Positions 1,587-45,467 of a stretch of DNA of 48,168 nucleotides are shown here, in pieces. Made by a program: the position numbers and the translations under genes. The stretch comes from Deltaproteobacteria bacterium. GTDB lineage: Bacteria; Desulfobacterota; GWC2-55-46; DRQE01. The stretch's first letter is position 1. Each line of letters starts with the position of its first letter. The DNA lies in NCBI GenBank assembly GCA_015492245.1, contig WGFM01000004.1:1-48168 (forward strand), read 5' to 3'. Below the pieces are notes generated by a model, which was not told the origin of the DNA, made no database searches, and was given only the letters and a program-made list of their open reading frames with translations.

Positions 1587-1598
1587 GGAGGTGTCATC

Positions 1599-28653: not shown

Positions 28654-28676
28654 CCTCTAACACCCTTCATCTCTTA

Positions 28677-28711
28677 ATAGCCCTGGGGGGACACTATGTC
28701 CCCAGGGCTAT
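28677..28711. terminator. long hairpin after the multicopper oxidase gene
   Basis: ATAGCCC and GGGCTAT form the outer stem, GGGGACA and TGTCCCC the inner stem around CTA, with a small G bulge. The stem is very stable but has no T-run, so it may act as a bidirectional block between the convergent oxidase and the tonB transcript. Confidence 0.6.
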
Positions 28712-29032
28712 CCTTAATGTTATACAGAGGATCATGGGGCACAGAACCCCTTTCACCACCCAGCGCTATGCTCATCACTCCGTGGAAGGCCTGCTGTTTA
28801 GACAGCCTGGATTGGCACACCCCCAAAACCCCACAGCGAGCATCCTCGACCTCCTGAACTCCTTCATGCTCATGGCAACCCTCTCTAAGATTTTGAAGAA
28901 AGTTTACAATCACACAACAGGAGGAGGACATCATCATTTCGGTGTAACACACCCATAGCGAGTTAGAACGAATCTTGACCACTCTGTTTTTGGTCAACCA
29001 GCCCCGTTCCGTTGAACACCAAATGGCTGTCA
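28712..29032. other. non-coding stretch with repeat remnants
   Basis: About 320 bases between the oxidase terminator and the tonB stop. It carries one copy of a 26-base sequence also found at 45576-45601 and the 12-mer ATTTCGGTGTAA (28936-28947), also found at 45558-45569. No convincing ORF is present; a 74-codon plus-strand frame has a His/Pro-rich product and no ribosome site. Confidence 0.45.
28767..28792 (+). repeat. 26-base dispersed repeat, copy 1
   Basis: ATGCTCATCACTCCGTGGAA then GGCCTG; the copy at 45576-45601 differs only at one base (A for G). Such a match at 16.8 kb distance is not expected by chance. Both copies have the same orientation and both lie in non-coding DNA near ATTTCGGTGTAA. 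Confidence 0.6.
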
Positions 29033-29773: not shown

Positions 29774-31775
29774 GCCTTAAGCCCATGAGTATGCCATTGA
29801 ACAGACAGTTGAAAGCCCTGCGTAATGCTACAGGGAGTTTCAGCCTCCTGTTGACAAGCGGCTCGAGCTCCTCTACCGTGCCTTTACTCAGCCTCTCGGC
29901 TACAGCCACACACCAGAGCATATATCCATCGAGCCCACCTATTGAGCCATGCTCTATACCATCGCTTATCAAGAATGCACCCTCTACAAAAGATGCATAC
30001 AGGGGCAGTGTAAGTATCTGCTCGAGTCTTTCAACAAGCCTGGCCCTTTCTGCCCCTGAAAGCCCTGCCCCATCCAGTAGTGAGTAAACCTCTATGTTCC
30101 GCTCGGCAAGTCTTTCAAAGACCGAACGCCTCATCCCTATACCGTTCTGTTTAAAGACTGCCTCCTTGACCGCCCTGAAGACCGCTCTACCCATGACCTC
30201 ACCGACCTTTGTATGTCCACCTGTGGCATCCACATCTGCCCCCGTTCCTTCAACCACTATTATGTTATCTGTGCCGGTGCCTGTCGCCTGGTTTACAGCA
30301 GGGCTTTGAGAGCTTCTTATATCAAGGTCCTGAAGGGCTGCTGTCTTTGCCTCTGTTGCTGTTATGAGAGCTCGTGCCATAGCCCGTGGCGACAGCTTCC
30401 TGTTAGCCATTATTATTATATTTATGGTGCCGGGCCTGTAGAAGCTGCCCTCATCCTCAGATGCACGAAGGGCATTTGACCTAACACCGGCAGTTACAAT
30501 GGCATATACTGTAAGCCCCCTGTAGTCTTCTCTTGCCACACTTAAGTTGTCCATATCCGCCCCTGTGAAGAGAAGGCTCGCCTCTTCTTCCAAGAGTCCC
30601 GTTGCACGACAGACCTGCTCCCTCAACCTCTTAAGCCCAACCCTGTGTGCCACCGCCCAGTTCTGCGGGGGCAGATAGTGGTTGCCCACATAGCGCACAC
30701 CTTCACGCCATCCTTCAAGGGTTGACAGGACCTTCAAGGGCTGTCTGAACCGAACGATAAGGCTTTTGTGTATAAAGTCGTTTATACGCACATGGTCTAT
30801 ACGGCTCATTTCCACATAGGCCAACTCCAGAGGCAGGGTCTTTGAGCCAACAGGGGCATCCTTATAAACCCTACTCTTTGCAAACTCCTCAACATATATG
30901 TTCGATGCAAGCCATGAGACGAAATGTCCTGCACTTACAGAGGCTCTACAGGTTAGCTCACAGGGAAAGAATAGTATCCTGCCCTCTTTTACCGCCTCCA
31001 CATCCTTCCAGCCCGGTTCATTCTCTATAGTCTCAATCGCCCTGCTCTTCTTGTTACAGGCGTATATCACCTGTGGGTTGAACTCCATCCACTCCTTCTT
31101 TGTAATGCTTACCACATCGCCCTGCTTTCCTGTCGTAAGCGGTATGGCACCTGCTGCCCTTATGTAGTCGAGCTGGAAGGAGTCATCCCCAGGGACCATC
31201 ACCCTGTCTCCACCCATAATTCTTGCAACCCGCTTCCTCCTCTCCCTGGGTACATGGCTCAACTTTTTTGCCACAAGCTCTATCTCCTCTCTTATGGCCT
31301 TCACCAGCTTTTCTGCCTCACTTTCTTTCTGGAAGATTCTTCCCACGATCCTTATGTTTCCGTATATGTCCTCTATCGAGTGGGCATCGAGCTCAACGAT
31401 GGCTGCCTTGCCTTTTAGCCTCTCTATCGCATCTCTGTGAACACTGGCAACAAACATCAAATCTGGCTCGAGGGCTTCTATCTTCTCCAGAGACGGATAA
31501 AGAAAGCCTCCCAGGAGTTCCTTACCTTCGGTGTGGCTGTCGTGATACGTGAGACCTTCGAGCTCATCCTTCATACCGAGTGCAACCAGTATGTCCGTAA
31601 CCGAGGGCACCAGAGACACCACCCTTGACGGAGGCCTGTCTATTGCAACCCTTCTGCCTGCTCCATCGGTGAAACTTACATGGTAAGAAGAGGCATACAA
31701 ATGCCCACTATAAAGAAGTGCTGTAAGAAAGCTCAATGTGAGGATAAAGGCCACCATTTCAGTTTTTCTCATCAC
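29748..31775 (-). CDS. exported BtuF-like binding protein fused to a CbiZ amidohydrolase domain
   Basis: A 675-residue fusion. After a signal peptide (residues about 8-28), residues 30-310 form a class III periplasmic binding protein of BtuF type: RVVSLVPSVTDILVALG, LEALEPDLMFVASVH-like segments (IEALEPDLMFV) and GVVSITKKEW-type hinge regions. Residues about 335-555 match CbiZ adenosylcobinamide amidohydrolase: LIVRFRQPLKVLS, AGVRSNALRASED (near 425), GTINIIIMANRKLSP, ITATEAKTAALQDL and TGTGTDNIIVVEG. About 110 further residues (to 675) are helical and unassigned. CbiZ cleaves the nucleotide-loop amide of pseudo-corrinoids to cobyric acid and is normally cytoplasmic, so an exported version is unusual. 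The start ATG overlaps the end of the CobN-like gene by four bases. No BtuC/BtuD permease genes are in the window. Confidence 0.85.
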   Translation of the reverse strand: MMRKTEMVAFILTLSFLTALLYSGHLYASSYHVSFTDGAGRRVAIDRPPSRVVSLVPSVTDILVALGMKDELEGLTYHDSHTEGKELLGGFLYPSLEKIEALEPDLMFVASVHRDAIERLKGKAAIVELDAHSIEDIYGNIRIVGRIFQKESEAEKLVKAIREEIELVAKKLSHVPRERRKRVARIMGGDRVMVPGDDSFQLDYIRAAGAIPLTTGKQGDVVSITKKEWMEFNPQVIYACNKKSRAIETIENEPGWKDVEAVKEGRILFFPCELTCRASVSAGHFVSWLASNIYVEEFAKSRVYKDAPVGSKTLPLELAYVEMSRIDHVRINDFIHKSLIVRFRQPLKVLSTLEGWREGVRYVGNHYLPPQNWAVAHRVGLKRLREQVCRATGLLEEEASLLFTGADMDNLSVAREDYRGLTVYAIVTAGVRSNALRASEDEGSFYRPGTINIIIMANRKLSPRAMARALITATEAKTAALQDLDIRSSQSPAVNQATGTGTDNIIVVEGTGADVDATGGHTKVGEVMGRAVFRAVKEAVFKQNGIGMRRSVFERLAERNIEVYSLLDGAGLSGAERARLVERLEQILTLPLYASFVEGAFLISDGIEHGSIGGLDGYMLWCVAVAERLSKGTVEELEPLVNRRLKLPVALRRAFNCLFNGILMGLRHDRTAGER

Positions 31776-34700
31776 ATTCTCCTTCCACTTTTTCTGTAGC
31801 CAAGAAATATTAGAAGAAGAAAGAGCATGAAGCCCATTATGAACAGATAGGGCACCGGTGCAGAGCCTGTTTCTGCTTTTCTTTTCACCTCTTCCATCTC
31901 ATAGCCCTCAACGGTCTGTGGCTTCTTCTCTTTGGACACAGGTTCTCTGTTTTCTTCCCTTAGGGATGTGCTGCCAGCTGTGGTTGTGTTCTTGAATATC
32001 CTCTCGAAGGATGCCGCTCCGTCCTTCAGTGCCGGCACAGGTAGCATGACACTTCTTGTGAACTCTTTAAGTTTCGGATTGTTGCATGTATGATCACAGC
32101 AGGTAAGCCCCACATCTTCCACAGTCTCCGTATACTCGCTTACCAGTCTTTTCACCGTCTCACCATCTGCCTTCCAGTAGCCTTTCCTTACTGCCTCGAG
32201 CATCCTTGCCACAAGGCTCTGGTATGCATAGAGGTTACTGGCATCTTTCATCCTCTGCTTTATGTTCAGTCTGTAACGGTCGAGCACATAGGTCTCATAG
32301 AATGCCTGCCACATGGTATCTCCCACAGCCTCTGGCACAGTTACCTGCCATCCCCAGAGATACTCCATCAGATTTGCAAAAAACCGTGCACCTGCATAGC
32401 CCTCACGAAGCATGGATTCTATCCAGCGCGGGTTTAGGTAGCGGGTCTGTGCCTCCTTTGTCATAAACCGTTTAAGTGCTTCCTGTCTCATCCTGTCAGG
32501 GTCTATGAGGTTCGTTATATAGACATTCGGGCTCTTGCCATCCATGGTTCTTACAGTAAGGGCAAGCCCACCGAGGTATTGAAACATATCGTCGTTGTCC
32601 ATCGTTGCGTAGAGGTTGCCAGAGACACTGTGGACCACCATGGATGTGCCAGAAAGAGTCTTCCAGAAGATATTCAGCCCACCTGCTGTCGCATCCTCAC
32701 CCCAGAAGCCCTGTCCATAGAGGTATCCCAGCCGCCTTAGAAAAAGCTCTGCAAGGCTTCTTTCGTCCTTCCATGAGTCCGATTTTGCCACCGCCTCACT
32801 CAGCCCTGTTCCATAGGTGCCGGAGCGCTCGGTAAAGATTCTCACCGTGGCAAGCCTCTCTGCAAGCCTCTCTTCCACGCCCTGTTTGATGAGTATCTCC
32901 TTGAGTTTCAGTGTATGGCTTCTTATCGCGTTGTCTCTTTCGTTCTGTTTCTTTGCCACGGTTACTGCCCTGTCGAGAAGTGCCATGAGGTTCGGAAATG
33001 TGTCCCTGTAAAGCCCTGATGGCACCATCACCACATCAACCCTTGCCCTTCCGAGCCTCTCTCTCGGTATGGCTGCAACATCAACCACCCTTCCGCGTTC
33101 ATCCCATACAGGCCTTACACCAAGGAGTGCCATAACCTGTGCCTCCATGATCCCCCTGTGTCTTATGGTCTCAACAGCCCACAGGTTTATGGTTATCTTT
33201 TGTGGCATGGTGTCCTCATCTTTCAGGTGCTTCTCCATGAGCTCTTCTGCCATCTTAACCCCTTTCCTGTAGGTGGCCTCTGTGGGTATCTTTGATGGGT
33301 CGAAGGCAAAGAAGTTTCTGCCTGTGGGAAGAGACTCTGGAGTTCTTACAGGGTCTCCCCCAGGACCTGCTGGTATGTATCTACCATTGAGGGCGGTGAA
33401 GAGTTTTTCAAGCTCTTCCTTTGCGGAATGCAGGATGAGTCTGCGATAAAGGGCCTTCTTGTCTTCCACATCCTCTGACGAGCCAACAGCCTCAGCAATT
33501 GCAACAGCCGTCTTGTCAACCATGTCCTCATGGGGTGTCTTTCCAAAGGTATGGAGCCCAAAGGGTGTTGGGGCATTCTCCATCTCATCCATGTATGCCT
33601 CGATTCTGTCGAGCACATCGCTATCGGCCACATCTTTTACTGAAAGTGCCCTTAATATACCAAGCCTTTCTGCAAGCTCTTTAAGCTCCCTCAGGGTTTC
33701 ATCTAAAGAGGTGGCGCCAAGTGCAAGGGCGTTCCTGTAGTCGTTCAGGAGTTCTTTCAGTCTTCTGACATCAGGGTTCAACCCTGCCTTATCGAAAGGT
33801 GGCGTCATGTGGTCTATCACAACTGCCATGCCACGCCTTTTTGCCTGAAGCCCCTCGCCAACATCGTCCACTATGTAGGGGTATACAACCGGGGTGTGCT
33901 GGGTCAACACATCTGGTGGGTCGCTTTCTGAAAGCCCCATCTCTTTGCCCGGAAGCCACTCATGGGTGCCATGGGTTCCAAGGTGTATTATGGCGTCTGC
34001 CCTGAAGACCTTCATGAGATAGAGATAAAAGGCTATGTACTGATGATGGGGTGGTAGTTCCGCAGAGTGGTAGAGTTTGTCTACATCCTGAAGCCAGCCC
34101 CTTGCAGGCTGGGGTGCGAGTATCATGTTGCCATACCTGACAATGGGTAGCACGATGTAGTCCTTTCCATCTTTCTTCCACATCATTATGGTGCCATCCC
34201 CGGGGCTACCCCACTCTTTTATGACCTCTTTTCTGAACCCCTCTGGAAGCTCACCGAACCAGCGCGAGTACTCATCAACAGGAATCAATACAGCCTTACC
34301 AGATGCCACAAGGCGAGAGAGCTCTCCTGCTGCCCAGTTGCCAAGGTTTCGTCCATAGCGGAAGAGATTCTCCGAAAGCCCCGTTTTCGTGAGCCCTCTG
34401 TTGCCTGTGTTATATCCCTGCCTTCTGAATCCATCCATCATGGTGTATATGCTCTCGATCACATTGAGATAGGATGCCCCTATGTTATGTTTGCCAGATG
34501 GATAGTTGTAGTAAACGATGGCGATGCGTTTGTCCCTGTTGGGTTTGCTCCTAAGATTGAGCCATGCCCTCACCCTCTTTGCGAGCATCTCCACCCTTTC
34601 CCTTATGGGTTCTGTCCTGTAATAGGTTGTACCGGTTGATGGGTCCTTGTACCGTTCTCTGGAGCCCACCACCACTGGCTGCACAGTTCCAGCAAGTTCA

Positions 34701-35629
34701 GGGGTTGCCACCTGCCATGTCCTCTCGAATATGGAAAGCCCTTTCCTGGATTGGAGCCATTCGCTGCGGCTCTTTCTATAGAGGCTTATGGCATCTATTA
34801 CAGGAGCCCCTATCTTCTCAAGTATGGGCACCATAGAGGTCTTTGCCCCTATCTTAAGAGATAGGCCCACTATGATACTCACCCTGAACTCCGGGTTTTC
34901 AAGAAAGTATCTCTTCAGCATCTCCTCTTCTGGCCAGCCAAAGACAGGAAAGACATTCAACCCCTCTTTCTCAAGGGCATCCACTATGGCGTCAACAAGG
35001 TTGGTGTCTTCTGTAACCAGTGAATTTCTGTAGAATGTAAGCCCCACCCATGGGACATCCTTCCTGGGTTTGTAGTGTCTCAGAAACTCATCAACACTTT
35101 CCACCCACCTGTGCTCCCCTCGTATGTATATGCCCATAGAAGGCATCTTCCGTGGGGCATCTGGCTCCACTTCGATTCCAGGCTCTTTCCTTACAAGAAA
35201 AAGGAGCATGTTCTTAAGGTTCTCCGTGCCACCATGGTCGTAGTAGGCCGTAAGAACAGGGTCTCTCAGTATACCCATCTTTCGGTATTCTTCGTCATAG
35301 GGCTCGCTTACCCCATAGACCCTGCCGCCATTTTTAACAACCCTTTCTACATAGTCCCTTGCTGCCATAACGATTCTTCTATCCATAAGGTAGATGACAA
35401 AGAGCTCGCCCTTCTCTGGCTTACTGTCTTTGATACCCGAGCGATCAAGAACCTTGAAGGAGACCCTTTTTTCAACCTCAGGGTGCTCCTTCTCTATGGC
35501 CTTTATTGCCTCTACAAGAGGCAATGTGTGGCTATCCGCGGGAAGAATGGTTATGACCGATGCAACGGATTCCTTTGCAAGAAGAAACAATAGAAGTGCC
35601 ACTATGTGAAAGAGCCTACTCTGGAACAT
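31772..35629 (-). CDS. exported, membrane-anchored CobN/HmuS-like chelatase subunit
   Basis: A 1285-residue homologue of the large cobaltochelatase/Mg-chelatase subunit (CobN/BchH). Unlike biosynthetic CobN it has a signal peptide (MFQSRLFHIVALLLFLLAK) and a C-terminal membrane helix (about 1259-1278, PYLFIMGFMLFLLLIFLGY) followed by a basic tail, placing the catalytic body in the periplasm. Family motifs include HLGTHGTHEWLPGK near residue 550, AGPGGDP near 760 and ERSGTYGTGLSEA near 940, plus a CC-x3-C motif (LTCCDHTCNNP) near the end. HmuS of Bacteroidota has this architecture and works on haem; here the cobalamin riboswitch and CbiZ fusion suggest a corrinoid. No CobS/CobT partner genes occur nearby. 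AAGGGTG lies 6 bases before the ATG; overlaps the DUF2149 gene by 14 bases. Confidence 0.88.
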   Translation of the reverse strand: MFQSRLFHIVALLLFLLAKESVASVITILPADSHTLPLVEAIKAIEKEHPEVEKRVSFKVLDRSGIKDSKPEKGELFVIYLMDRRIVMAARDYVERVVKNGGRVYGVSEPYDEEYRKMGILRDPVLTAYYDHGGTENLKNMLLFLVRKEPGIEVEPDAPRKMPSMGIYIRGEHRWVESVDEFLRHYKPRKDVPWVGLTFYRNSLVTEDTNLVDAIVDALEKEGLNVFPVFGWPEEEMLKRYFLENPEFRVSIIVGLSLKIGAKTSMVPILEKIGAPVIDAISLYRKSRSEWLQSRKGLSIFERTWQVATPELAGTVQPVVVGSRERYKDPSTGTTYYRTEPIRERVEMLAKRVRAWLNLRSKPNRDKRIAIVYYNYPSGKHNIGASYLNVIESIYTMMDGFRRQGYNTGNRGLTKTGLSENLFRYGRNLGNWAAGELSRLVASGKAVLIPVDEYSRWFGELPEGFRKEVIKEWGSPGDGTIMMWKKDGKDYIVLPIVRYGNMILAPQPARGWLQDVDKLYHSAELPPHHQYIAFYLYLMKVFRADAIIHLGTHGTHEWLPGKEMGLSESDPPDVLTQHTPVVYPYIVDDVGEGLQAKRRGMAVVIDHMTPPFDKAGLNPDVRRLKELLNDYRNALALGATSLDETLRELKELAERLGILRALSVKDVADSDVLDRIEAYMDEMENAPTPFGLHTFGKTPHEDMVDKTAVAIAEAVGSSEDVEDKKALYRRLILHSAKEELEKLFTALNGRYIPAGPGGDPVRTPESLPTGRNFFAFDPSKIPTEATYRKGVKMAEELMEKHLKDEDTMPQKITINLWAVETIRHRGIMEAQVMALLGVRPVWDERGRVVDVAAIPRERLGRARVDVVMVPSGLYRDTFPNLMALLDRAVTVAKKQNERDNAIRSHTLKLKEILIKQGVEERLAERLATVRIFTERSGTYGTGLSEAVAKSDSWKDERSLAELFLRRLGYLYGQGFWGEDATAGGLNIFWKTLSGTSMVVHSVSGNLYATMDNDDMFQYLGGLALTVRTMDGKSPNVYITNLIDPDRMRQEALKRFMTKEAQTRYLNPRWIESMLREGYAGARFFANLMEYLWGWQVTVPEAVGDTMWQAFYETYVLDRYRLNIKQRMKDASNLYAYQSLVARMLEAVRKGYWKADGETVKRLVSEYTETVEDVGLTCCDHTCNNPKLKEFTRSVMLPVPALKDGAASFERIFKNTTTAGSTSLREENREPVSKEKKPQTVEGYEMEEVKRKAETGSAPVPYLFIMGFMLFLLLIFLGYRKSGRRM

Positions 35630-35954
35630 ATATCACCCTTCCGTCTTCGAGCCTGTAGGCGGTGCCAAGCTTTACTCCCCTGCCAGACAGTCTCCTGTCT
35701 GTAACCCTTTTTGCCTCTATCTTACGGCCCTTTTTGGTTATGATTTCGATCTTTCCGTCTCCATCCTTTTTTAGTATCGTGAGTTCAGACTCGGGGTTCA
35801 GAAGCTCCAGCATGTTGTATGCCATAAACAGGGCTACCATCATGCTCACTATGAAGACAATCCCTGCATCGAAGAGGTTTGCCACACCCTGTATGGGATC
35901 CTCTATGGGTTCTTTGGAATCGAAAAAGAGCCTTCTTCTTTTAAGAAACCTCAT
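35616..35954 (-). CDS. DUF2149 protein, ExbD-like
   Basis: I place the start at 35954, where ATG overlaps the stop of the ExbB-like gene (ATGA); a frame starting at 36023 would only duplicate that gene's 3' end. The 112-residue product is MRFLKRRRLFF..., with a single membrane helix preceded by VANLFDAG. Asp29 at the start of this helix corresponds in place to the proton-carrying Asp of ExbD/TolR/MotB. The C-terminal part is periplasmic and basic, with KKGRKIEAKRV and a strand-rich end (GTAYRLEDGRVIYV). DUF2149 is a domain found with CobN-like and ExbB-like genes in archaea and bacteria. I infer that it replaces ExbD as stator partner for the operon's TonB. Confidence 0.82.
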   Translation of the reverse strand: MRFLKRRRLFFDSKEPIEDPIQGVANLFDAGIVFIVSMMVALFMAYNMLELLNPESELTILKKDGDGKIEIITKKGRKIEAKRVTDRRLSGRGVKLGTAYRLEDGRVIYVPE

Positions 35955-36505
35955 CCTTTCTGTCTCCTCCTCAAAAGAATCTCTGCATGGGTCTCCATTC
36001 TGAGTATGTCTCTTTTCACCCACTTCTCTTTTACAAGGCTCAGCACATAGGCAGCTACCCCGCAGGCAAGCCCCACCACAGTGGTCGTAAAGGCTGTAAC
36101 CATATTGCCTGCCATCTGGGGTATGTCTCCCCTGGCAAGAGAGCTCAGGGCTATGCCCATCGGTATGAGGGTTCCCATGAGTCCAAGTGCAGGCCCCACC
36201 CTTATGACAAACCTTATCCTGTTGAGCCCGTCGGTAAGCTCTGCCTCTCTGCGCTGTAGCTCCCTTTCTATAAGTATGTCCAGTGTATCTGTGGATTCAC
36301 TGTTTTCAACCTCTTCTTCAAGGCTATCGCAGAATCTTTCCACATCGTACTCATAACCTCTCTTTCTTTCGATATACTCTCGCAGAAGTGCGCCCGAACA
36401 GAAAAGAACCCAGAAGACAAGCCCCACAAGGCCTGCCACGACAGGGTATAGCATAAGTTCGGAGAGCACATACAGAAATGTCAGAAGCCCTGCGAATATG
36501 TTCAT
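35951..36505 (-). CDS. exbB-like: MotA/TolQ/ExbB-type proton channel protein
   Basis: A 184-residue protein with three membrane helices: about 8-40 (LSELMLYPVVAGLVGLVFWV), 98-125 (VIRVGPALGLMGTLIPMG) and 132-160 (MVTAFTTTVVGLACGVAAYV). The GPALGLMGTLIPMGIAL and FTTTVVGLACG motifs are the ExbB/TolQ signature, including the Thr residues lining the proton path. Cytoplasmic loop from about 45 to 95 is acidic. It would power TonB together with DUF2149. Overlaps the DUF2162 gene and the DUF2149 gene by four bases each, so translation is tightly coupled. Confidence 0.9.
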   Translation of the reverse strand: MNIFAGLLTFLYVLSELMLYPVVAGLVGLVFWVLFCSGALLREYIERKRGYEYDVERFCDSLEEEVENSESTDTLDILIERELQRREAELTDGLNRIRFVIRVGPALGLMGTLIPMGIALSSLARGDIPQMAGNMVTAFTTTVVGLACGVAAYVLSLVKEKWVKRDILRMETHAEILLRRRQKG

Positions 36506-37209
36506 ACTCTCCTCCCGCTGGTTATGAAACCAGTGACTGCTGCAAGGAGAAGAATCCCCACAACACCAGGTGCATCTGCGGTAAGCATTACAGGAGATTT
36601 TGCCCCAAGAAAACCAGAGTACACAGGCCTTGCCTTCTCCACCACTGCTGGAACGAAAAGAGAAAGGATAAAGTATAGCCCTACGAGAAAGAGTGTGAAA
36701 GAGAGGTTGACTATGCCCCTCTCCTTCGATGCCCTCGCAACAAAAAGAAAAACTGTGGTCAGCGTAAGAAAGACCACGAGAAGCAAGCCTCCCATAAATA
36801 CGGGGGAGCTACCTGTAAATGCCACCGCAGACCACACAGAGTATGCAATGGCAGCCGTACATACAGGGCACGGAACGACGAGCAGAATAAGTGAAACCTT
36901 CTTCTGCCGCTCGGTGCAGCACACGCTGTGGTTTTTGAGTATCCACAGTGCCCAGCCTACAAATGCTACGGCAACTATTGCGTGAAGATAGATGCCTGCC
37001 CCAAGCACGCCTGAAAGAACCCCCACCACATCTTCAGCAACAAGGCTCAGGATGATGAAGAGTGCCATGTAGCCTCCATAGACAAGCCCCACCTCTTTAA
37101 GTGTGGCTCTCGCAAACCCAAGCCCACAGCCTGTCTTTACTGCGAACACCCCAAGGCTTATACTCATGCCAAGAAGCCACAGAGCCGTATCTATGGATGG
37201 ATTCTGCAC
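36502..37209 (-). CDS. DUF2162 predicted transporter
   Basis: A 235-residue polytopic membrane protein with about six or seven helices, e.g. DTALWLLGMSISLGVFAV, GLVYGGYMALFIILSLV and GVVGILLLAAVTGFITSG. It has a CCTERQK motif near residue 97 and PCPVCTAAI near 112, giving four Cys that could bind a metal or form redox pairs. DUF2162 proteins are annotated as putative transporters and commonly neighbour CobN-like and DUF2149 genes. GTG start with GGAGG six bases upstream, 10 bases after the receptor gene. It could move the freed metal or corrinoid across the inner membrane, given the absence of BtuCD; this is inference. Confidence 0.82.
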   Translation of the reverse strand: MQNPSIDTALWLLGMSISLGVFAVKTGCGLGFARATLKEVGLVYGGYMALFIILSLVAEDVVGVLSGVLGAGIYLHAIVAVAFVGWALWILKNHSVCCTERQKKVSLILLVVPCPVCTAAIAYSVWSAVAFTGSSPVFMGGLLLVVFLTLTTVFLFVARASKERGIVNLSFTLFLVGLYFILSLFVPAVVEKARPVYSGFLGAKSPVMLTADAPGVVGILLLAAVTGFITSGRRV

Positions 37210-37219
37210 GAACGCCTCC

Positions 37220-39166
37220 TCATATTATGAGCCTCACAATCCCTGTGTATGTCCTTTCTGGCATGGGATAGCCCGCCACATACTCGTAGCTTCTGTTGAG
37301 AAGGTTCTCAACTGAAAACCCTAACTCAACCTCCTTGTGCACCCTGTATGAACCCTTCAGGTTCACAAGAAGGAAGCCTCTCTTCTCTATGGTCTTCCCA
37401 TAGGTTGGTGAAGAGAAGTTCCAGTCTGTAACCTTCTCCTTTCCGTTATAGCGTGCAACGAGCCTTGCATCCCAGCTTTCACCCATCATCCTTACGCCAA
37501 AACTGCCAACCCACTTTGGCGTGTATAGAAGGGTCTTTCCGTACTCGTCTATTTCGGTCCTGTCTTTTGCAGAGTAGCGGGTATGGTAGGTTATGCTTAC
37601 GAATGGCTCTACCGAGGTGAACCAGCCCAGAAGAGCACCTATGTCTGTAGAGAGGTTTGTCTCCACACCCTGAACAGTGGCACCATCCACATTCTTCCAT
37701 GTCCTTGCAGAAAGGCCTGCATCGTAGTAGCCCAGTATCTTGTTGTCAAACTCTGTATGAAAGAAGGTAAGCTCCACACTGTTCATCCCATCTGAGAACT
37801 CCACACCTGCATCATAGGTTACACTCTCCTCGGGCTCAATCTCAGGGTTTCCCACATAACGGGTTCCCCATGAAGAGACATAGTCTGCTGCAAGCTCATC
37901 AGGGGCAGGAGATCTGAAGGCCGTGCCAATGTTGAGCTTAACCCTTGTATGCTCTGTAAGCCTGTATACTGCACCACCCCGTAAGGCTGTGTAGTCCATG
38001 TCCTCATCCCTTGGGGTTACAGAGACACCAGGGGTGCTCAGCACCTCGTTCTTGAAGTAGTCGTATCGCAGTCCACCGTTGAGGGTGAGCCTTTTGTCCA
38101 GAAGCTCTCCCCTGAGTTCTGTAAAGACTCCATATGTGTTGTACCGCGAGTTCGGGCTATAGGGAGCTCCTGCGGTTCTCTTTGAAGAGACCCTTATCCT
38201 GTTCCAGTCCGCACCAGCTACAAGGCGCACACCTTCGAACTCAAAGCTTTTCTGTGCTGTAAAGCCGGTGGTCTGTGTATTTTTTGTGGTTACATTGGTG
38301 TTACTGTACCACTCGTCCTTGTCGTCTATACTGTAGTAGCTTATCTTTGTGCTCTCTGTGGTGTAGGCAATATCTATGCCGTCTCTTTTCTTATCCGAAT
38401 AGTCGTCCGGAGCTGGTGAGTACCTTGGCCCTGGGGAGCCTATGTCCCAGCCACGCCAGTGCTCGAGACCGAAGGAAAGCCTTCCGCCTTCTTTGAGCCC
38501 GTAGCCGAGCCTGAAGGAAAAGGTCTCGTCGTTGTAGGATGTGTTTGGAATCTTACCGTACTCTCTGGCGTCGTAGTCGCCCCTTGATGCCCTGCTCACA
38601 GAAAACAGAAGGTCTACCATTCCTTCTTTAAGGCTGAACTCTGCCCACTGTTTCGAGTAGTCCCACGAGCCACCTTCTGTCCCAAGCTCTGCACCCGTGC
38701 GCCTCGCCCTTTTGGTTATTATGTTTACAACCCCTCCCATTGCCTGTGAACCGTAGAGCACGGAGGCAGGTCCCTTTACTATCTCTATCCTCTCTATATC
38801 CTCAACAGGTATCTTTGCAAGGTTCACCGTGCCTGCATTGTGCCCGTCTACGAGAACGAGTACCCTGCTCTTGTAGATACTGAAAAGGTCTGTTGCAAGC
38901 CCCCTCAGGCCCATTCTTGCACTGAGTGTGCCGGGATACTTGTGCACATGCCCGATGCCTGCCTCGCTCACCAGATCTGCTGCATCCTGTGCGGTGGAGT
39001 TCTTTATGTCCTCACTGGTTATAATCTGAACCGGAGAGGATACATCTTTTCTTGGCTCCTCAATCCTTGTGGCTGTAACGACCACTTCTCCAAGACTATC
39101 CGCCTGCACGGTAAGTGCTGTGTTTGTCAAGAGAAGGATTACGAGACATACAAGAAACCTCTTCAT
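37220..39166 (-). CDS. btuB-like: TonB-dependent outer-membrane receptor, BtuB/HmuR-like
   Basis: A 648-residue receptor. A signal peptide (MKRFLVCLVILLLTNTAL, cleaved near VQADS) is followed by a TonB box (LGEVVVTATR, about 25-34), a plug domain with SARMGLRGLATD, VLVLVDGHNAG, DIERIEIVKGPASVLYGSQAMGG split across 120-150 and IITKRARR, and a 22-strand barrel ending in YTGIVRLII. Length and plug motifs fit BtuB and haem receptors equally. The cobalamin riboswitch upstream favours a corrinoid ligand. The barrel has no FRAP/NPNL-type haem motif that I can see. GGAGG lies about 10 bases before the ATG. First large gene of the riboswitch operon. Confidence 0.92.
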   Translation of the reverse strand: MKRFLVCLVILLLTNTALTVQADSLGEVVVTATRIEEPRKDVSSPVQIITSEDIKNSTAQDAADLVSEAGIGHVHKYPGTLSARMGLRGLATDLFSIYKSRVLVLVDGHNAGTVNLAKIPVEDIERIEIVKGPASVLYGSQAMGGVVNIITKRARRTGAELGTEGGSWDYSKQWAEFSLKEGMVDLLFSVSRASRGDYDAREYGKIPNTSYNDETFSFRLGYGLKEGGRLSFGLEHWRGWDIGSPGPRYSPAPDDYSDKKRDGIDIAYTTESTKISYYSIDDKDEWYSNTNVTTKNTQTTGFTAQKSFEFEGVRLVAGADWNRIRVSSKRTAGAPYSPNSRYNTYGVFTELRGELLDKRLTLNGGLRYDYFKNEVLSTPGVSVTPRDEDMDYTALRGGAVYRLTEHTRVKLNIGTAFRSPAPDELAADYVSSWGTRYVGNPEIEPEESVTYDAGVEFSDGMNSVELTFFHTEFDNKILGYYDAGLSARTWKNVDGATVQGVETNLSTDIGALLGWFTSVEPFVSITYHTRYSAKDRTEIDEYGKTLLYTPKWVGSFGVRMMGESWDARLVARYNGKEKVTDWNFSSPTYGKTIEKRGFLLVNLKGSYRVHKEVELGFSVENLLNRSYEYVAGYPMPERTYTGIVRLII

Positions 39167-39333
39167 TGTTAAAAGACCTCCATAATTTTTTAAAAGACCG
39201 TGTTACACTCCACCGGGCCTGACACACTGAAAGAAGAAATCCCATTGACCTGAGGGGGACACACGATGGGTGCATGAAGACACACCAGCGCCTTTCCACA
39301 CAAGATTATGGGTATGTGTGGCTCTGCGTGGTA

Positions 39334-39405
39334 TCAGGTAATTTCAGATGAATCTGGTGGGTCTACCAGCGAAATGTGTATCTGGCAGGAAATGAACTTT
39401 TCCAT
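39334..39405 (-). CDS. 23-codon ORF after the cobalamin riboswitch
   Basis: ATG at 39405 preceded by GAGGGAGGT seven bases upstream, opening a frame for MEKFISCQIHISLVDPPD and a few more residues, then TGA. It lies right after the riboswitch aptamer, whose end region CCTCGAGG is complementary to the ribosome site, so its translation may be the switch's direct target. It may be a leader peptide or simply a regulatory start site. Not homologous to anything I know. Confidence 0.4.
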   Translation of the reverse strand: MEKFISCQIHISLVDPPDSSEIT

Positions 39406-39434
39406 GGCATTACCTCCCTCGAGGATTTTCCTGA

Positions 39435-39592
39435 CGGATGGGTCTTCCGGCTTGGGGCAGGTTAGCCTACTCGCCCGCCTTCCCACCATGGTGTTATCCA
39501 TGGCAGTGGCTCTGGTGGGCTTTCGTTCCCATCACGGCTGCGGGGCAGCGGGGGATTCACACCCCTCTTCCACGCATCCGCCAGTTTGTGTG
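39435..39592 (-). promoter_or_regulatory. cobalamin (B12) riboswitch
   Basis: On the minus strand the aptamer contains, in order, GTGTGAATCCCCCGCTGCC, CCGCAGCCGTGATGGGAACG, the B12 box GAGCCACTGCC, CCATGG paired with CCATGG, GGTGGGAAGGCGGGCGAG and AAGCCGGAAGACC. These are the conserved core segments of AdoCbl-type riboswitches. It starts within about 20 bases of the predicted transcription start. The expression platform probably involves CCTCGAGG and the GAGGGAGG ribosome site that follows (39410-39430), so translational control is likely; no terminator stem with T-run is evident. It controls the receptor-CobN-like operon and ties it to corrinoids. Confidence 0.92.
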
Positions 39593-40111: not shown

Positions 40112-40546
40112 ATGAATGGTAAAAAACGACAAGGTCAATTTATGAAGAAAACCAGAAGAAGTTCTCTACCAGGCAGGGTTAAGGTATTCAATGTGCTGGA
40201 TGGTCAAGCCGTAAAGCTCAAGCACACACCTTATGGATCTGTGGGCTACTGCTATCGTGGTAAGGATATGGAGGTGGTCTGGGTGCGAAAAGAAGCGGAA
40301 GAGATTGACACAAGCTGGTATTCCCAGCCCACAACGGATCATATTTTTATCGTCAAGGGAAGACTTAAGGTGGTATTCCCTGGCGGAAGTTCGACGATAC
40401 TTAAGCCTGGTGATCTGATGGTCTTGCCCAAGAATACAAAGTGCAGGGCTTATAGCTACCCGCGCCGGAAAGGGGCGGAAACAATTTTTTTAGCCTTTTA
40501 TCGAAAGCCACCTACGAGTCATACATCTCACAAGAACAAGCGTTAG
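40112..40546 (+). CDS. small cupin-domain protein
   Basis: A 144-residue protein with a single cupin barrel (about residues 60-130): HIFIVKGRLKVVFPGG and LKPGDLMVLPKNTKCRAY match the two cupin motifs, though the usual metal-binding His pair of motif 1 (HxH) is reduced to one His in TTDHIF and motif 2 lacks His, so it may not bind metal as canonical cupins do. The start has a basic tail (MNGKKRQGQF). AGAGGT lies 8 bases before the ATG. It is convergent with the radical-SAM operon and its stop overlaps the last gene of that operon by four bases, an arrangement that suggests antisense coupling. Function could be binding or isomerising the operon's product. Confidence 0.8.
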   Translation: MNGKKRQGQFMKKTRRSSLPGRVKVFNVLDGQAVKLKHTPYGSVGYCYRGKDMEVVWVRKEAEEIDTSWYSQPTTDHIFIVKGRLKVVFPGGSSTILKPGDLMVLPKNTKCRAYSYPRRKGAETIFLAFYRKPPTSHTSHKNKR

Positions 40547-41532
40547 AGCCAGCAATGCGGGTCTTCTCCAAACAGATCACCATGGTAAGCCAGAGCTGTT
40601 GCTCTGCAACCACCACATCTTTCCATGAAGATACAGACGGAACATTTGCCTTTAAGATTTCGGCCAACCTGAAGCTTTCTTACGCAAGGGGAACCGCGCC
40701 AGATTTCACCGAACGATTGGATCCTTAAATCACCAATAGGCGCTGGTATCAATACACATGGAGTAACATATCCCTCAGGAGTAATGCACGCCTGTCCTCT
40801 ACCTGCAGCACAACCTCTGAACCCTTGCCTGGAGGCATGAAGTGGATCTATCAAAGCCAATTGGGACAGATGCGTCCTGAATTCCATTTTGCCCTTGTAG
40901 TTATCTCTCATTTCCTTCCATTTGCTCATAACCCACTTCCATTCCTGCGGAGACAGATCCTGGTCTTCGGTGCCCCTGCCGACCGGGACAAACTGTGAAA
41001 CATTGAATAGAGCAATCCCCATATCTGAGGCCAACTTCACGAGGGGTTCAAAATGGTGTAAGTTGCTTCTCTGCGGTGTGTAACATAGATGAACCTTCAA
41101 TCCAATTGATACAGCACTGTGGACAGTCTCCAAAGCCCTAACGAAGGAACCGGGACGACGGATAGAATCATGGCTTTCCTCCAGCCCATCAATACTGACT
41201 TGAAGTCGATTGATACCACATGACTTGAGTTCTTCAAGAACCTCACGACTGACATTCCAGCCGTTGGTCCCAATGCCAACACAGAAATTCTTCTTGACAG
41301 CGGCCGTGATAATATCAAAGATGTCGGCTCGTAACAGAGGTTCTCCCCCTGAAAACGCCAAATCAACCACCCCGATTGATTTCAGCTGGTCCATAATATC
41401 CAGGATTTCTTCCAGTGACAGTTCTTCTTCCGCTGGTTTTCCTCCATCCGCTGAACAATGAAGGCACCTGAAGTTGCAAGCCCTGGTGATCTGCCACAGT
41501 ATGTGATAAGGATAGACATTAATATCAGTCAT
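40543..41532 (-). CDS. radical SAM/SPASM enzyme (second copy)
   Basis: A 329-residue radical-SAM protein of the PqqE/SPASM type. The cluster motif CNFRCLHC (Cys19, Cys23, Cys26) is followed by FSGGEPLLR, GIGTNGWNV and LQVSIDGLEES, the SAM-binding and barrel signatures. The C-terminal SPASM region carries GCAAGRGQACITPEG, TPCV, CSVCIFMERCGGCR and DPHCWL, enough Cys for two auxiliary clusters. The ATG at 41532 has AAGG nine bases upstream and overlaps the HemN-like gene by eight bases; an ATG at 41541 is less well placed. It resembles the first SPASM gene at 43933 throughout, so the two are paralogues that may act on different sites or form a pair. Substrate unknown. Confidence 0.9.
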   Translation of the reverse strand: MTDINVYPYHILWQITRACNFRCLHCSADGGKPAEEELSLEEILDIMDQLKSIGVVDLAFSGGEPLLRADIFDIITAAVKKNFCVGIGTNGWNVSREVLEELKSCGINRLQVSIDGLEESHDSIRRPGSFVRALETVHSAVSIGLKVHLCYTPQRSNLHHFEPLVKLASDMGIALFNVSQFVPVGRGTEDQDLSPQEWKWVMSKWKEMRDNYKGKMEFRTHLSQLALIDPLHASRQGFRGCAAGRGQACITPEGYVTPCVLIPAPIGDLRIQSFGEIWRGSPCVRKLQVGRNLKGKCSVCIFMERCGGCRATALAYHGDLFGEDPHCWL

Positions 41533-42799
41533 CGACCACATCCTTTTTAGGACAAAATGGCTGTAGTTCCTCGGGTATACGCATTACTCGCCTCAAGTAT
41601 TCTTCGTTCTTGAATTTAAAATATACCGCTGAAAGCAGGTGTATCTGTTCCATCCCTTTCCAGGACAGATGCACCTGATCCTTGTTGAGTTCCACCAGCC
41701 CAGCCTTTGACAGCTCTGAGAGCTCTTTTTGCAAATATTTTACAGAGCCTGAGCCAAATCTGGCCTCTAAATCCGAATACCGGAACATCATTCTTTTTGA
41801 TAACCCTAAAAGAGCCCAGCGCCTGATCAAGTCGCCACTGTCCAAAGAAATAGACAGCGCCTGTGTGTTATCAGGTGTTCTACCAATGTACTGCTCCAAG
41901 TCAGATATGTTTTTCATGTAACGACCATCTATAAATGACTGGGCTGACACCCCAAAACCAAGGACATTCCCCCCATCCCAGTATTTATGATGATGGATAC
42001 AGACATACTTGTCGTCAAGGGCGAAATGGGCTGTGCCTATACGAAGATACCCATGACTCAGAAGGTAATCGGTTGAACTTCTGAAACGTTCCATTCTCTC
42101 TGTTTTGTAGGCCAGGCATTCTCTGCGTAGACTTTCATCTGCAAAGACCCCTGTATTGTTTCTGAGAACAAAGGGATATACCGAGATATGTGGAATCTTG
42201 TTTCGAACCAACACATCGAGGGTGGCATCAACTGATCTTTGTGTCTCACCAGGGAGACCTACGAGAACATCGCAATTGATGTTCTCAAAGCCATTCTTTC
42301 GTATAAGGTCCACCATGTGGGAGAACCGCCCTGGTGTCCCCTCCCTGCCAAATCGTTGCAATAGCTGGCCATCAAGGTTTTGTACTCCCAGACTGATACG
42401 ATTGAATCCTGCTGCTCTCCATATTCGCAATTTAGCCTCATCTATTGAAGATGGATTGCATTCAACAGTTACTTCGGGAATCTCTCTTGTCTCCCAGAAT
42501 CTTGTTAAGACCCTTATCAGGTGGCTCCATTGCCGAAGCGACAACAAGCTCGGGGTTCCGCCTCCTATGTAAAGTGAATTAACTATGGATTCCCTGGGCT
42601 TCCAACCATGCCATCTAAACTCGATCTCCTGTTCCAGGGCGGTAAGGTAGGCGTTAATCTCTGCCTCGCAAACCTCGACGAAGGAGACATAAAAACAAAA
42701 CTTACACTTGGTCTTACAAAAAGGTATGTGGATGTACAGTTCCAGATCTTGAGCCGGAGTGTTCCTGCGTTGGCCTGTTGGCACCTCATTTGCTCTCAT
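41525..42799 (-). CDS. HemN/HemW-like radical SAM enzyme
   Basis: A 424-residue radical-SAM protein of the coproporphyrinogen dehydrogenase-like group. YIHIPFCKTKCKFCFY (Cys28, Cys32, Cys35 from the start at 42799) is the HemN-type motif. YIGGGTPSLLS, VTVECNPSSID, RISLGVQNLDGQLLQRFGR and VLVGLPGETQ are typical of HemW, HutW/ChuW and class C radical methylases. The C-terminal part (about 310-400) is a winged-helix-like domain (FRYSDLEARFGSGSVKYLQ). The Cys-to-aromatic residue after the motif is Phe-Tyr, not the Gly-type of HemN itself, so haem synthesis is not assured. AAAGGGAA sits 7-8 bases before the ATG at 42799. It overlaps the methyltransferase gene by 14 bases. Confidence 0.88.
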   Translation of the reverse strand: MRANEVPTGQRRNTPAQDLELYIHIPFCKTKCKFCFYVSFVEVCEAEINAYLTALEQEIEFRWHGWKPRESIVNSLYIGGGTPSLLSLRQWSHLIRVLTRFWETREIPEVTVECNPSSIDEAKLRIWRAAGFNRISLGVQNLDGQLLQRFGREGTPGRFSHMVDLIRKNGFENINCDVLVGLPGETQRSVDATLDVLVRNKIPHISVYPFVLRNNTGVFADESLRRECLAYKTERMERFRSSTDYLLSHGYLRIGTAHFALDDKYVCIHHHKYWDGGNVLGFGVSAQSFIDGRYMKNISDLEQYIGRTPDNTQALSISLDSGDLIRRWALLGLSKRMMFRYSDLEARFGSGSVKYLQKELSELSKAGLVELNKDQVHLSWKGMEQIHLLSAVYFKFKNEEYLRRVMRIPEELQPFCPKKDVVDD

Positions 42800-43643
42800 A
42801 GAGTTTCCCTTTGCCATGAACGAATAGATAGCCTTTCGACCTGTGGATTTCCAGCTCAGAGAAGGCATCCCCTAACCGCATCTGAAAAAAAGAAGAGTCG
42901 AACCGATGCAAGTGAGCTTTAACCTCGGAAATACCAAACATCTGTCGGGATTGTTTGTGCAGCAAATAAGCCTCATCTTCAGTATCACCCACACTTAGGT
43001 AAAGGCATCCACCGGGCCTGAGAACCCTGAGGATTTCTGCCATGGCAAGATCAGGGCTGATGAGATGGTCAAAAACATCGATACTTAAAAGAACATCAAA
43101 AAAGTTGCTCTGTAAGGGCAAACATTCGGCAATGCCTTGCACAAAAGGCACTCCATGATTTATTGCTGCCACACATGGGTCGAGACCAAGATAGTTGCTA
43201 TCAGGGAAATGGTTTGCCCTGAGAGCGGTCCCGCACCCAAGGTCGAGAACCCACTTGCCCTTTGCAAGCTGTATCAGGTCTAATAGCTTGTATATCACTT
43301 CAGGATCAAGACGGTGTTCCTTCGTAAGCTTCCGAGAAAAAGGAGCTCTTGATCTGGCATGGGAATCTTTCTTGTTGCGCCAGGAGTAGGTGGATTCCAT
43401 GGACTCGGCCCATCGGCCCAGCAGGCTTTCTGATACGCCTCGTGATGTGAGCAACTTCAAGACACGCGGTGTAATAAAACTCGGGAAGCCTGCTCTGACA
43501 GGAAAGTTGGCGTTGCAAAGTCGGCAAAGAAGCGCGCCCCTGTTGTCATGCTCTAAGGAACCAAGGCAGAGGGGACATGCTAAGCTGCGTATAAAGGCAT
43601 CTATAAGTACATTAAATACATTTGTCTGCTGGTTTGGTGTCAT
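42786..43643 (-). CDS. class I methyltransferase with N-terminal zinc ribbon
   Basis: A 285-residue protein. The N-terminal knuckles CPLC (23-26) and CRLC (40-43) form a Trm112/zinc-ribbon-like module. KWVLDLGCGTA (about 130-140) is the SAM-binding motif I; DSNYLGLDPC, FDVLLSIDVFDHL and EILRVLRPGGCLYLSVGD are motifs II to IV. It looks like a small-molecule or protein methyltransferase related to UbiE-type enzymes. I take the ATG at 43643, which overlaps the PqqD-like stop (ATGA), over the ATG at 43709. The fusion to a zinc ribbon is common in enzymes acting on amino acids or rRNA, but the substrate here is presumably the operon's product. Confidence 0.87.
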   Translation of the reverse strand: MTPNQQTNVFNVLIDAFIRSLACPLCLGSLEHDNRGALLCRLCNANFPVRAGFPSFITPRVLKLLTSRGVSESLLGRWAESMESTYSWRNKKDSHARSRAPFSRKLTKEHRLDPEVIYKLLDLIQLAKGKWVLDLGCGTALRANHFPDSNYLGLDPCVAAINHGVPFVQGIAECLPLQSNFFDVLLSIDVFDHLISPDLAMAEILRVLRPGGCLYLSVGDTEDEAYLLHKQSRQMFGISEVKAHLHRFDSSFFQMRLGDAFSELEIHRSKGYLFVHGKGKLYESK

Positions 43644-43936
43644 TCCACCGCCTGAATCTCTAACAATTGCCGCTCCATAAGGTCCTTTACAAACAAGAGA
43701 GTAAGCCATTTCACCCGTTCCATCTCTTTTTCATCACAATCAAGGGCATGCACGAATATCCGGATAGCATCCTCAATACTCAGCTTTCCATCCAACAAGC
43801 TTAAAAAGCGAACCCCCTCGTCTGAAACGGAATGGAGATGATCGGTAGCGGGATTATAGAGCAGATAGCCTTCATCCTGTTTGCGGAGAATCACATCATC
43901 GCGTATACGCGGTTTACAGCTTAACAAATCTATCAT
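43640..43936 (-). CDS. PqqD-like (RRE) protein
   Basis: A 98-residue PqqD-family protein: PRIRDDVILRKQDEGYLLYNPATDHLHSVS shows the beta-hairpin (split across residues 9-38), then DEGVRFLSLLDGKLSIEDAI and a helical end. PqqD-like domains bind the leader of a precursor peptide and present it to a radical-SAM/SPASM enzyme, so a ribosomally made product is suggested. It starts and ends with four-base overlaps (with the SPASM gene upstream and the methyltransferase gene downstream), which points to strict co-production. Confidence 0.85.
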   Translation of the reverse strand: MIDLLSCKPRIRDDVILRKQDEGYLLYNPATDHLHSVSDEGVRFLSLLDGKLSIEDAIRIFVHALDCDEKEMERVKWLTLLFVKDLMERQLLEIQAVE

Positions 43937-44991
43937 GCTGTATCCTCCTTTGAGTTGGAAATGCCAAAGTCCTGCGGAGTTTCGTCAGCTTTGATCCAAC
44001 AGTAGCTGTCGCCGTTGAAGGCATCTCCATAATATGCAAGAGACAACGCCCTGCAGCCACCACAAATCATCTTGTGTTCGCACTTACTGCAGTTGCCAGA
44101 GACGATATTGTTACGGTCGCGTATCCGCCAGAGGATGTCCGACTCGTTCCATATCCGGCTAAACGAGAAACGGCGTAAATCCCCCGCTGGTAGAGGAAGT
44201 GATACGCATGGCGTTACCTTTCCATCAACAGTTATTCGACAGGTGACAACCCCTGCCCCACAGCCAATATATTTCGACGAGGCGGTAGGTTCAACCAGCA
44301 AGGCCACCCTGCAATCGTGCCAGAGGATCTTCATTCTCCCGGCATATGACCGCTTCATCTCGATCCACTCCTCAAGCACCCATTTCAGCTGGTGATCACT
44401 CAATGCGATATCCAGCCCACCGCGACCCGTCGGCACATAAGTAGACAAGTTCGCCTTCTTCACACCAAGCCTTTCGGCCAGCGCAACGACCTGCCGACCA
44501 TGACGGTAGTTCAGAGCGGTGGGAGTAAACCCTACGGTAACAGGAACACCTGCTGCTACAAGCCGTTGTATCCCTTCCAGGGCAGATTGGAAGAGACCTT
44601 GTTGCCCTCTGATCTTCTCGTGAACTTCACTGCTGGCACCGTCAAGACTGACGGTTACATTGTGAACACCAATTGTCTTGAGATCGTGTACAACATCAGG
44701 GGTTAAGGTTCTCCCATTGGTGCCTACTGTTACACGAAGGGACTTCGCCACAGCGTGACTCAGGAGGTCTCGCCAGTCAGGGCGTAATAAGGCTTCACCT
44801 CCAGAGAATCCTAATATGAAGACCCCCATGTGGGCAAGTTGGTCTATAACATCCAAGGCCTCGACGGTAGATAACTCGTCTGTCACCACATCAGGACCAG
44901 CGTTTGAATAGCAATGAATGCACAGCGCATTACACTTGTGGGTAACTTCCCACACGACATACAGAGGCTGGTTGAAGAAGTAATGAGACAT
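43933..44991 (-). CDS. radical SAM/SPASM enzyme (first copy)
   Basis: A 352-residue PqqE-like protein. Cluster motif CNALCIHC (Cys20, Cys24, Cys27), FSGGEALLRPDW, VTVGTNGRTLTP, VTVSLDGASSEVHEK and VPTGRGGLD follow family order. The SPASM region has GCGAGVVTCRI, TPCVSLPL, CSKCEHKMICGGCR and DSYCW, supplying ligands for one or two auxiliary [4Fe-4S] clusters. It overlaps the PqqD-like gene by four bases, the classic PqqD/PqqE-type pairing. Its N-terminus is hydrophobic (MSHYFFNQPLYVVW) but is not a signal. It is 14 bases after the SnoaL-like gene. Confidence 0.9.
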   Translation of the reverse strand: MSHYFFNQPLYVVWEVTHKCNALCIHCYSNAGPDVVTDELSTVEALDVIDQLAHMGVFILGFSGGEALLRPDWRDLLSHAVAKSLRVTVGTNGRTLTPDVVHDLKTIGVHNVTVSLDGASSEVHEKIRGQQGLFQSALEGIQRLVAAGVPVTVGFTPTALNYRHGRQVVALAERLGVKKANLSTYVPTGRGGLDIALSDHQLKWVLEEWIEMKRSYAGRMKILWHDCRVALLVEPTASSKYIGCGAGVVTCRITVDGKVTPCVSLPLPAGDLRRFSFSRIWNESDILWRIRDRNNIVSGNCSKCEHKMICGGCRALSLAYYGDAFNGDSYCWIKADETPQDFGISNSKEDTA

Positions 44992-45005
44992 AAAGTCTCA
45001 CATCC

Positions 45006-45467
45006 TCAAACGATAGCCCATGCAATAGCCGATAATTCACCCAAATCCTTGACAGAAAGCCTGTCAGCTAAAACAAAGGGTTTCTCCGTCGGTGTTGGCA
45101 GGTAGAGGGTCAGCTTTTCGATCTTATTGTCTTCAATCTCAAAAACCTGGACACCTCTAACCTTGAACGAGGCGCCAGACCTATCAGAAAGTATGGTCAA
45201 AAATTCCACCGCAACTATACCGTTTTGCACCAAAATGGTTTTTGGACAAGAAACAGCGGCTCCTAAGCGTTCTTTGGACTTCCTGAACATCTCGCCAAAG
45301 AGTTGAGCAATCTCGTCTTTACATCTACAGGTGAGCCTTTTGCCTTCGGGCTCAATTCCGCCCACATATTCCACTACTGCTCCTTCTGAGAACAGCTCTG
45401 TCACGCCACTTGGATTCCCATCGTTGTATGCATCATAGAATTTCCTTACAATAAGTTCTGCTGACAT
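45006..45467 (-). CDS. SnoaL/NTF2-like protein
   Basis: A 153-residue NTF2-fold protein: KFYDAYNDGNPSGVTELFSEGAVVEY is the N-terminal helix-turn-strand (residues 9-34), GKRLTCRCKDEIAQLF follows, and VEFLTILSD, FKVRGVQVFEIEDNKIEKL are the C-terminal strands. SnoaL-like folds act as small-molecule isomerases, cyclases or binding proteins. AAGGAGG lies about 8 bases before the ATG, the best ribosome site of the operon. It is the first gene after the operon promoter, which supports a main role, perhaps in late product handling. Confidence 0.85.
   Translation of the reverse strand: MSAELIVRKFYDAYNDGNPSGVTELFSEGAVVEYVGGIEPEGKRLTCRCKDEIAQLFGEMFRKSKERLGAAVSCPKTILVQNGIVAVEFLTILSDRSGASFKVRGVQVFEIEDNKIEKLTLYLPTPTEKPFVLADRLSVKDLGELSAIAWAIV

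Follow-up and report, generated by a model that had tools for sequence, protein, structure and literature searches.

We propose that a six-gene operon in the genome of a Deltaproteobacteria bacterium (assembly GCA_015492245.1, contig WGFM01000004.1; the whole stretch analyzed, positions 1 to 48,168 and 48,168 nucleotides long, is hereafter the window) encodes a radical S-adenosylmethionine (SAM)/PqqD modification system whose substrate would be encoded in the operon itself, as the C-terminal tail of a protein with the NTF2 fold. The operon lies on the minus strand at 40543–45467 and reads, in coding order, NTF2/SnoaL-like protein, radical SAM enzyme A, PqqD-like protein, methyltransferase, HemN-like radical SAM enzyme and radical SAM enzyme B, where A and B both carry SPASM domains. 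Its core recurs in the same order in unrelated bacteria, and the tail is the most conserved part of the NTF2 protein. We give an even chance to a scheme in which the NTF2 protein carries the substrate, the PqqD-like protein delivers it to A and B, and the tail is modified around an invariant tryptophan.

The six-gene operon is real. All the genes that a sequence-only reading of the window had named are present, with domains assigned by Pfam and NCBIfam profiles (PqqD through an orthologue in Indioceanicola), and their frames are far longer than chance open frames, which reached at most 227 codons in 200 mononucleotide shuffles of equal length. That reading had also described a single tight operon with overlapping genes, which stands with a small correction: overlaps of 4–17 bases join the genes (ATGA at the A/PqqD and PqqD/methyltransferase junctions, 14 bases between methyltransferase and HemN-like genes, and 17 bases between HemN-like gene and B, all with re-set starts), but a gap of 14 bases, the only one in the operon, separates the NTF2 gene from A, and the overlong methyltransferase and HemN-like overlaps in the list of open reading frames came from start codons extended too far.

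A genome-neighborhood search for the same combination, which the sequence-only reading had suggested, was fruitful. The core order NTF2 – A – PqqD – third radical SAM – B was found in four unrelated bacteria: on a plasmid of Indioceanicola profundi and in metagenome-assembled genomes of Bauldia, Rubrivivax and an Opitutaceae bacterium. The plasmid was reached by tblastn, with a match to A at 50% identity and a neighborhood that reads NTF2 – radical SAM – PqqD – radical SAM – radical SAM; a profile scan of genome contigs yielded the three further clusters, identical in gene order. The profile was short, drew on two sequences and covered only two peptide patterns, making the cluster count a lower bound; a first genome-contig scan and a viral-contig scan gave no match. 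The tree places window A in a clade with the four other A proteins (support 100/99; 48–51% identity) and window B in a clade with its B counterparts (92/87; 39–41% identity); because these clades are separate, the duplication that gave rise to A and B probably predates the spread of the cluster.

Enzyme A was absent from 59 relatives of the host at E 1e-60, from 395 genomes of its phylum at 1e-65 and, apart from the window's own genome, from a class of 63 genomes at 1e-70, nor was it found in the other sampled genomes of the Opitutaceae phylum or the Rubrivivax order. The Indioceanicola cluster is plasmid-borne, with TIR and SIR2 genes just downstream, and near the other clusters we found IS66, VapE-like and S24-peptidase repressor-like genes (Bauldia), TraL and a transglycosylase (Rubrivivax) and ArdC (Opitutaceae). 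These plasmid, transposon, phage-like, conjugation and anti-restriction surroundings suggest that the clusters are carried on mobile islands, and the gene set is apparently rare and mobile. The Rubrivivax locus also holds, at 296–3303 on the minus strand, an ORC-CDC6-like ATPase adjoining a PRTase-CE protein, a predicted conflict or defense pair.

In each of the five clusters the core begins with the NTF2 gene, which encodes a candidate precursor of 153–177 amino acids. Of the 153 residues of the window protein, the Pfam SnoaL_2 model reaches only to residue 116, and 4u13, the best solved relative, extends a single residue past its matching last strand. Beyond the fold come a proline-containing linker and then a conserved tail, RLSVKDLGELSAIAWAIV in the window and ALQIEDLGHLSAMAWMVA, KLKIEDMGKLASVAWMVA, ALQVEDLGRLSAMAWMVA and ALRIEDLGRLSAMAWMVA in the other four, with all five proteins ending at the same residue. 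The tail consensus, LxxxDLGxLSAxAW(M/A)(V/I)(A/V), is the most conserved stretch of the protein: the last 18 residues are 33–56% identical between the window and its four orthologues, compared with 18–25% for the preceding part, and no other 18-residue stretch scores as high. Six of the 18 tail columns are invariant against 11 of 120 in the rest (Fisher p 0.011; Mann–Whitney p 0.0007), figures that are indicative only, given that columns were assumed independent, the tail was picked after inspection and the sequences are few. With the 30-residue tail alone as query, the cluster NTF2 gene was the top match in each of the four genomes or records (E 0.003 to 0.15). The full profile found one clear copy in each cluster genome and, at E 1e-5 and 1e-4, none among the other sampled genomes (356 Alphaproteobacteria and 354 of the host's own phylum), and for this reason the NTF2 family appears to belong to the cluster.

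PqqD-type carriers and SPASM enzymes normally work on a ribosomal peptide, as in the pyrroloquinoline quinone (PQQ) and mycofactocin pathways, and on that ground the tail as substrate is the simplest reading. The operon has both, and the peptide- or protein-directed chemistry that the sequence-only reading expected is probably correct. Its remark that no precursor peptide gene is evident is probably wrong, as the SnoaL-like gene, with a cluster-specific tail conserved up to its terminus, is the best precursor candidate. Among open frames of at least 18 codons in the 6-kb flanks of the five loci, no short precursor gene was common to all; only a tautomerase gene was shared above a background of many low-scoring matches that look like GC-rich frame noise. 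The NTF2 tail is the only candidate for an encoded peptide or protein substrate in or near the operon, and its conservation and specificity fit a predicted site of modification. A separate short peptide as substrate, encoded at another place in the genome or by a gene that went unrecognized, seems to us quite unlikely. PqqD with SPASM enzymes usually implies a peptide, very short genes are easily overlooked, and the weak-match background could conceal one; yet the flanks share nothing but the tautomerase above chance, and within the operon the genes abut or overlap, leaving no space for another.

The shared tautomerase, of the 4-oxalocrotonate-tautomerase type, overlaps the end of B in three of the four other clusters (Indioceanicola, Bauldia and Rubrivivax) and is absent from Opitutaceae and the window. 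We first took it for a precursor candidate and dropped it once Pfam assigned it to this family; proline directly follows the start methionine. In Indioceanicola the gene (76 amino acids, + strand, just after 15800) is unannotated in the record.

Both the tautomerase and a Bauldia gene of glyoxalase/VOC fold that overlaps the NTF2 start (2292–2738 of that locus, + strand; a possible extra tailoring enzyme) suit small-molecule chemistry, and SnoaL_2 members are often enzymes of isomerase, cyclase or dehydratase type. The NTF2/SnoaL-like protein might then be such a tailoring enzyme, working with the tautomerase or a cupin on a small molecule or a released peptide, and its tail might be structural. 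We regard this as somewhat unlikely: a catalytic pocket predicts a well-conserved domain and a freer tail, the reverse of what the alignment gives, and the PqqD-like protein would be left without an encoded peptide in the operon.

Several observations nevertheless weigh against the tail as substrate. It may simply be a helix that packs against the NTF2 fold or takes part in dimer contacts, and the NTF2 domain may itself be catalytic. Only five clusters are at hand, three of them closely related, so that independent comparisons of the tail are few. The motif LxxxxL, present in four of the five tails (LxxxxM in Bauldia), is weak and frequent by chance. Neither a leader/core cleavage motif nor a protease was seen, and the tail has no cysteine or tyrosine, the residues used in many well-studied radical SAM substrates.

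The data show the operon, its shared core, the conservation of the tail and its restriction to the cluster; from this evidence we infer the identity of the substrate, the order of steps, the chemistry and the product as follows. The NTF2 domain and the proline-containing linker would form an outsized leader or carrier; the PqqD-like protein would bind the linker or tail and hand the tail to A and B, which would carry out radical chemistry around the invariant Ala-Trp near the C-terminus, the obvious candidate site of change. An exchangeable third module, either the HemN-like enzyme with the methyltransferase or a B12-binding radical SAM enzyme, would add carbon or a further C–C bond. Neither protease nor exporter adjoins the operon, so the modified tail may remain attached to the NTF2 protein and serve there as a built-in cofactor, or a host protease may free it as a small molecule resembling a cofactor, in the manner of PQQ and mycofactocin.

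The third module differs among clusters. The other four encode a third radical SAM protein of 482 amino acids, with a B12-binding domain detected in Indioceanicola and, apart from a short match, no detectable relation to the HemN-like protein of the window, and they lack the methyltransferase; the window's is the one HemN-type cluster known. On the sequence evidence, the HemN-like protein and the methyltransferase are outside the conserved core and occupy the place of the B12-binding radical-SAM enzyme. The sequence-only reading had counted them as pathway members, and they do sit in the window operon, but the core of the other clusters does without them. The HemN-like protein has the CxxxCxxC motif as CKTKCKFCFY and lacks the fourth cysteine of HemN (CX3CX2CXC). 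Its solved relatives in the Protein Data Bank are HemN (1olt) and NocN (9p2u), a radical SAM methyltransferase; the kinship with NocN is a lead only. The Trm112-type zinc ribbon of the methyltransferase falls 0.6 bits short of the Pfam cut-off. By gene pairing alone, the two adjacent, overlapping genes resemble the C10P/C10Q cyclopropanase, a HemN-like radical SAM enzyme paired with a SAM methyltransferase (PMC6050322), and this precedent is likewise a lead only. C10, however, works on a small molecule during the biosynthesis of CC-1065, and the consulted passages of that source mention neither PqqD nor SPASM partners for the C10 step.

Enzymes A and B each contain the CxxxCxxC motif together with a complete set of SPASM cysteines, and each fell far short of the profiles of known families: AhbD (214 and 198 bits against a cut-off of 500), NirJ (160 and 174 against 515), MftC (151 and 144 against 265) and PqqE (125 and 117 against 381), with the TIGR04053 cut-off likewise missed. 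The best solved relative of A is PqqE. The window's PqqD-like protein has no Pfam match of its own and only weak NCBIfam matches (E about 0.002), including WgkC, ScmD and GeoRSP far under each cut-off; it aligns to the Indioceanicola orthologue, which exceeds the Pfam PqqD cut-off (24.3 vs 23.4 bits), and through this orthologue the operon encodes a stand-alone PqqD-family carrier like those of mycofactocin and PQQ systems. A defense system was also considered and rejected, as PADLOC returned only weak viperin-like radical-SAM matches.

A tetrapyrrole pathway, with A and B as AhbC/AhbD/NirJ-like enzymes and the third as a coproporphyrinogen-type HemN, has some points in its favor. AhbD, NirJ2 and TIGR04053, all under their cut-offs, are among the best NCBIfam profiles of A and B, HemN is the best profile of the third enzyme, and the neighboring operon is of cobalamin-uptake type and includes a gene for a CobN-like subunit. 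Yet the scores are far below the cut-offs (HemN 182/325 bits for the HemN-like protein, which also misses HemW at 176/205 and HutW at 157/400), the HemN-like gene is missing from the other clusters, and we know of no haem pathway that includes PqqD. A and B form a tree group of their own (85/85), apart from the host AhbD and NirJ-like proteins, Thermus TIGR04053, MftC and Paenibacillus relatives. The host genome (1.88 Mb, 35 contigs) has, on contig C6, an AhbD gene whose product exceeds the cut-off and whose neighbor we read by sequence as HemB, and a NirJ-like protein (425/515 bits) on contig C25, between genes read, again by sequence, as cytochrome-cd1-type beta-propeller proteins. Scores, tree and these host proteins lead us to reject the haem and haem-d1 pathways, which the sequence-only reading had named as what would overturn its suggestion that the pathway could be undescribed; that suggestion survives. 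The tetrapyrrole reading is very improbable and already largely refuted. Contig C12 of the host carries a further AhbD/NirJ2-like SPASM radical SAM protein (1489–2691 of the examined stretch, + strand; 307/500 bits, under all cut-offs), directly 5′ of a gene read as galactose-1-phosphate uridylyltransferase.

Mycofactocin (MftA/MftB/MftC) and PQQ (PqqA/PqqD/PqqE) resemble the window operon in that one operon holds a substrate-like gene followed by genes for a PqqD protein and a SPASM enzyme; in the mycofactocin operon compared, mftA precedes mftB and mftC as the NTF2 gene does here. In contrast to their short peptides, the candidate precursor is an NTF2-fold protein of the size given above; two SPASM enzymes are joined by a third radical SAM enzyme, MftD/E/F- and PqqB/C/F-type genes are absent, and A and B lie under the MftC and PqqE cut-offs. 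Proteusins, ribosomally synthesized and post-translationally modified peptides (RiPPs) with a nitrile-hydratase-like leader, have a folded leader, a proline-rich linker, an LXXXXL motif and a tryptophan-bearing core (PMC10858898), which shows that such an arrangement can work. They are alike in idea, with a folded enzyme-like leader, a proline-containing linker, LXXXXL and a C-terminal core with tryptophan, but the leader fold here is NTF2/SnoaL-like, PqqD and SPASM enzymes are present, and there is no Gly-Gly cleavage motif; domain searches returned SnoaL-type domains only, with no nitrile-hydratase-like or Nif11 leader. AhbC, AhbD and NirJ, of siroheme-dependent haem and haem-d1 synthesis, are among the SPASM profiles nearest to A and B, yet far above them in cut-off and separate in the tree. 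GeoRSP, SynChlorMet and WgkB/WgkC-type cassettes likewise combine SPASM enzymes with a PqqD-family partner, but all their cut-offs were missed by far and no cassette precursor was recognized; to our knowledge, none of them has been described with an NTF2-tail protein. In the open-access literature searched, outside which most subscription journals lie, we found no published description of radical SAM with PqqD, or of a RiPP, combined with SnoaL, NTF2, ketosteroid-isomerase-like or tautomerase proteins.

Downstream of B, a convergent cupin gene of doubtful membership (Table 1) has no relative near the four other clusters in the flank comparison. Beyond it, at 28674–39571 on the minus strand, lies a separate operon of B12/corrinoid-uptake type with a cobalamin riboswitch at 39442–39571. 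It encodes a TonB-dependent receptor, DUF2162, ExbB-like and DUF2149 proteins, a CobN-like subunit, a fused periplasmic-binding/CbiZ protein and TonB, and its DUF2162/ExbB/DUF2149/CobN set resembles haem-uptake hmu operons. The fusion (29748–31775, minus strand) joins a BtuF-like periplasmic-binding domain to an adenosylcobinamide amidohydrolase (CbiZ) domain and would unite uptake with remodeling in one protein, an unusual combination. We considered this TonB/CobN/CbiZ operon as part of the system and treated it as separate, given its own riboswitch, the intervening convergent cupin gene and the lack of relatives in the flanks of the other clusters.

Table 1 Features of the six-gene operon and the convergent cupin gene in the window
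Feature	Position	Strand	Remarks
NTF2/SnoaL-like protein, 153 aa	45006..45467	-	First operon gene; SnoaL_2 44.9 bits over residues 7–116 (Pfam); cluster-specific; proposed carrier/precursor
Conserved tail RLSVKDLGELSAIAWAIV, last 18 codons of NTF2 gene	45009..45062	-	Invariant L, D, G, L, A, W; proposed core/modification site
Radical SAM/SPASM enzyme A, 352 aa	43933..44991	-	Pfam Radical_SAM + SPASM; CxxxCxxC + SPASM cysteines; A clade 100/99
PqqD-like peptide-carrier (RiPP recognition element, RRE) protein, 98 aa	43640..43936	-	Orthologue above Pfam PqqD cut-off; 29–44% identity to orthologues over 43–87 aa
SAM-dependent methyltransferase, N-terminal Trm112-like zinc ribbon	42786..43643	-	Methyltransf_11 54.3 bits, Trm112p 21.4 bits; start re-set from 43709 (ATGA overlap)
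HemN-like radical SAM enzyme	41525..42799	-	Radical_SAM + HemN_C (Pfam); start probably 42799 or slightly upstream
Radical SAM/SPASM enzyme B, 332 aa	40543..41541	-	Pfam Radical_SAM + SPASM; B clade 92/87
Cupin, convergent, tail-to-tail with B, 4-base overlap	40112..40546	+	Cupin_3 29.2 bits; membership doubtful

If the tail is the substrate, the operon would stand for a kind of modified-peptide or modified-protein pathway that has not been described. Tentatively, and at somewhat less than even odds, we picture a pathway that spreads horizontally, where two SPASM enzymes and a PqqD protein modify an AW-bearing tail to give a new cofactor-type product or a built-in, radical-made cofactor, and where the third enzyme is swapped between a HemN-like protein with its methyltransferase and a B12-binding enzyme. 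Such a swap would suggest that two radical SAM subfamilies do interchangeable work in one pathway. Searches limited to short unannotated genes would overlook this whole class if the tail is indeed the substrate, because the precursor hides in a protein already annotated as ‘SnoaL-like’ or ‘nuclear transport factor 2’.

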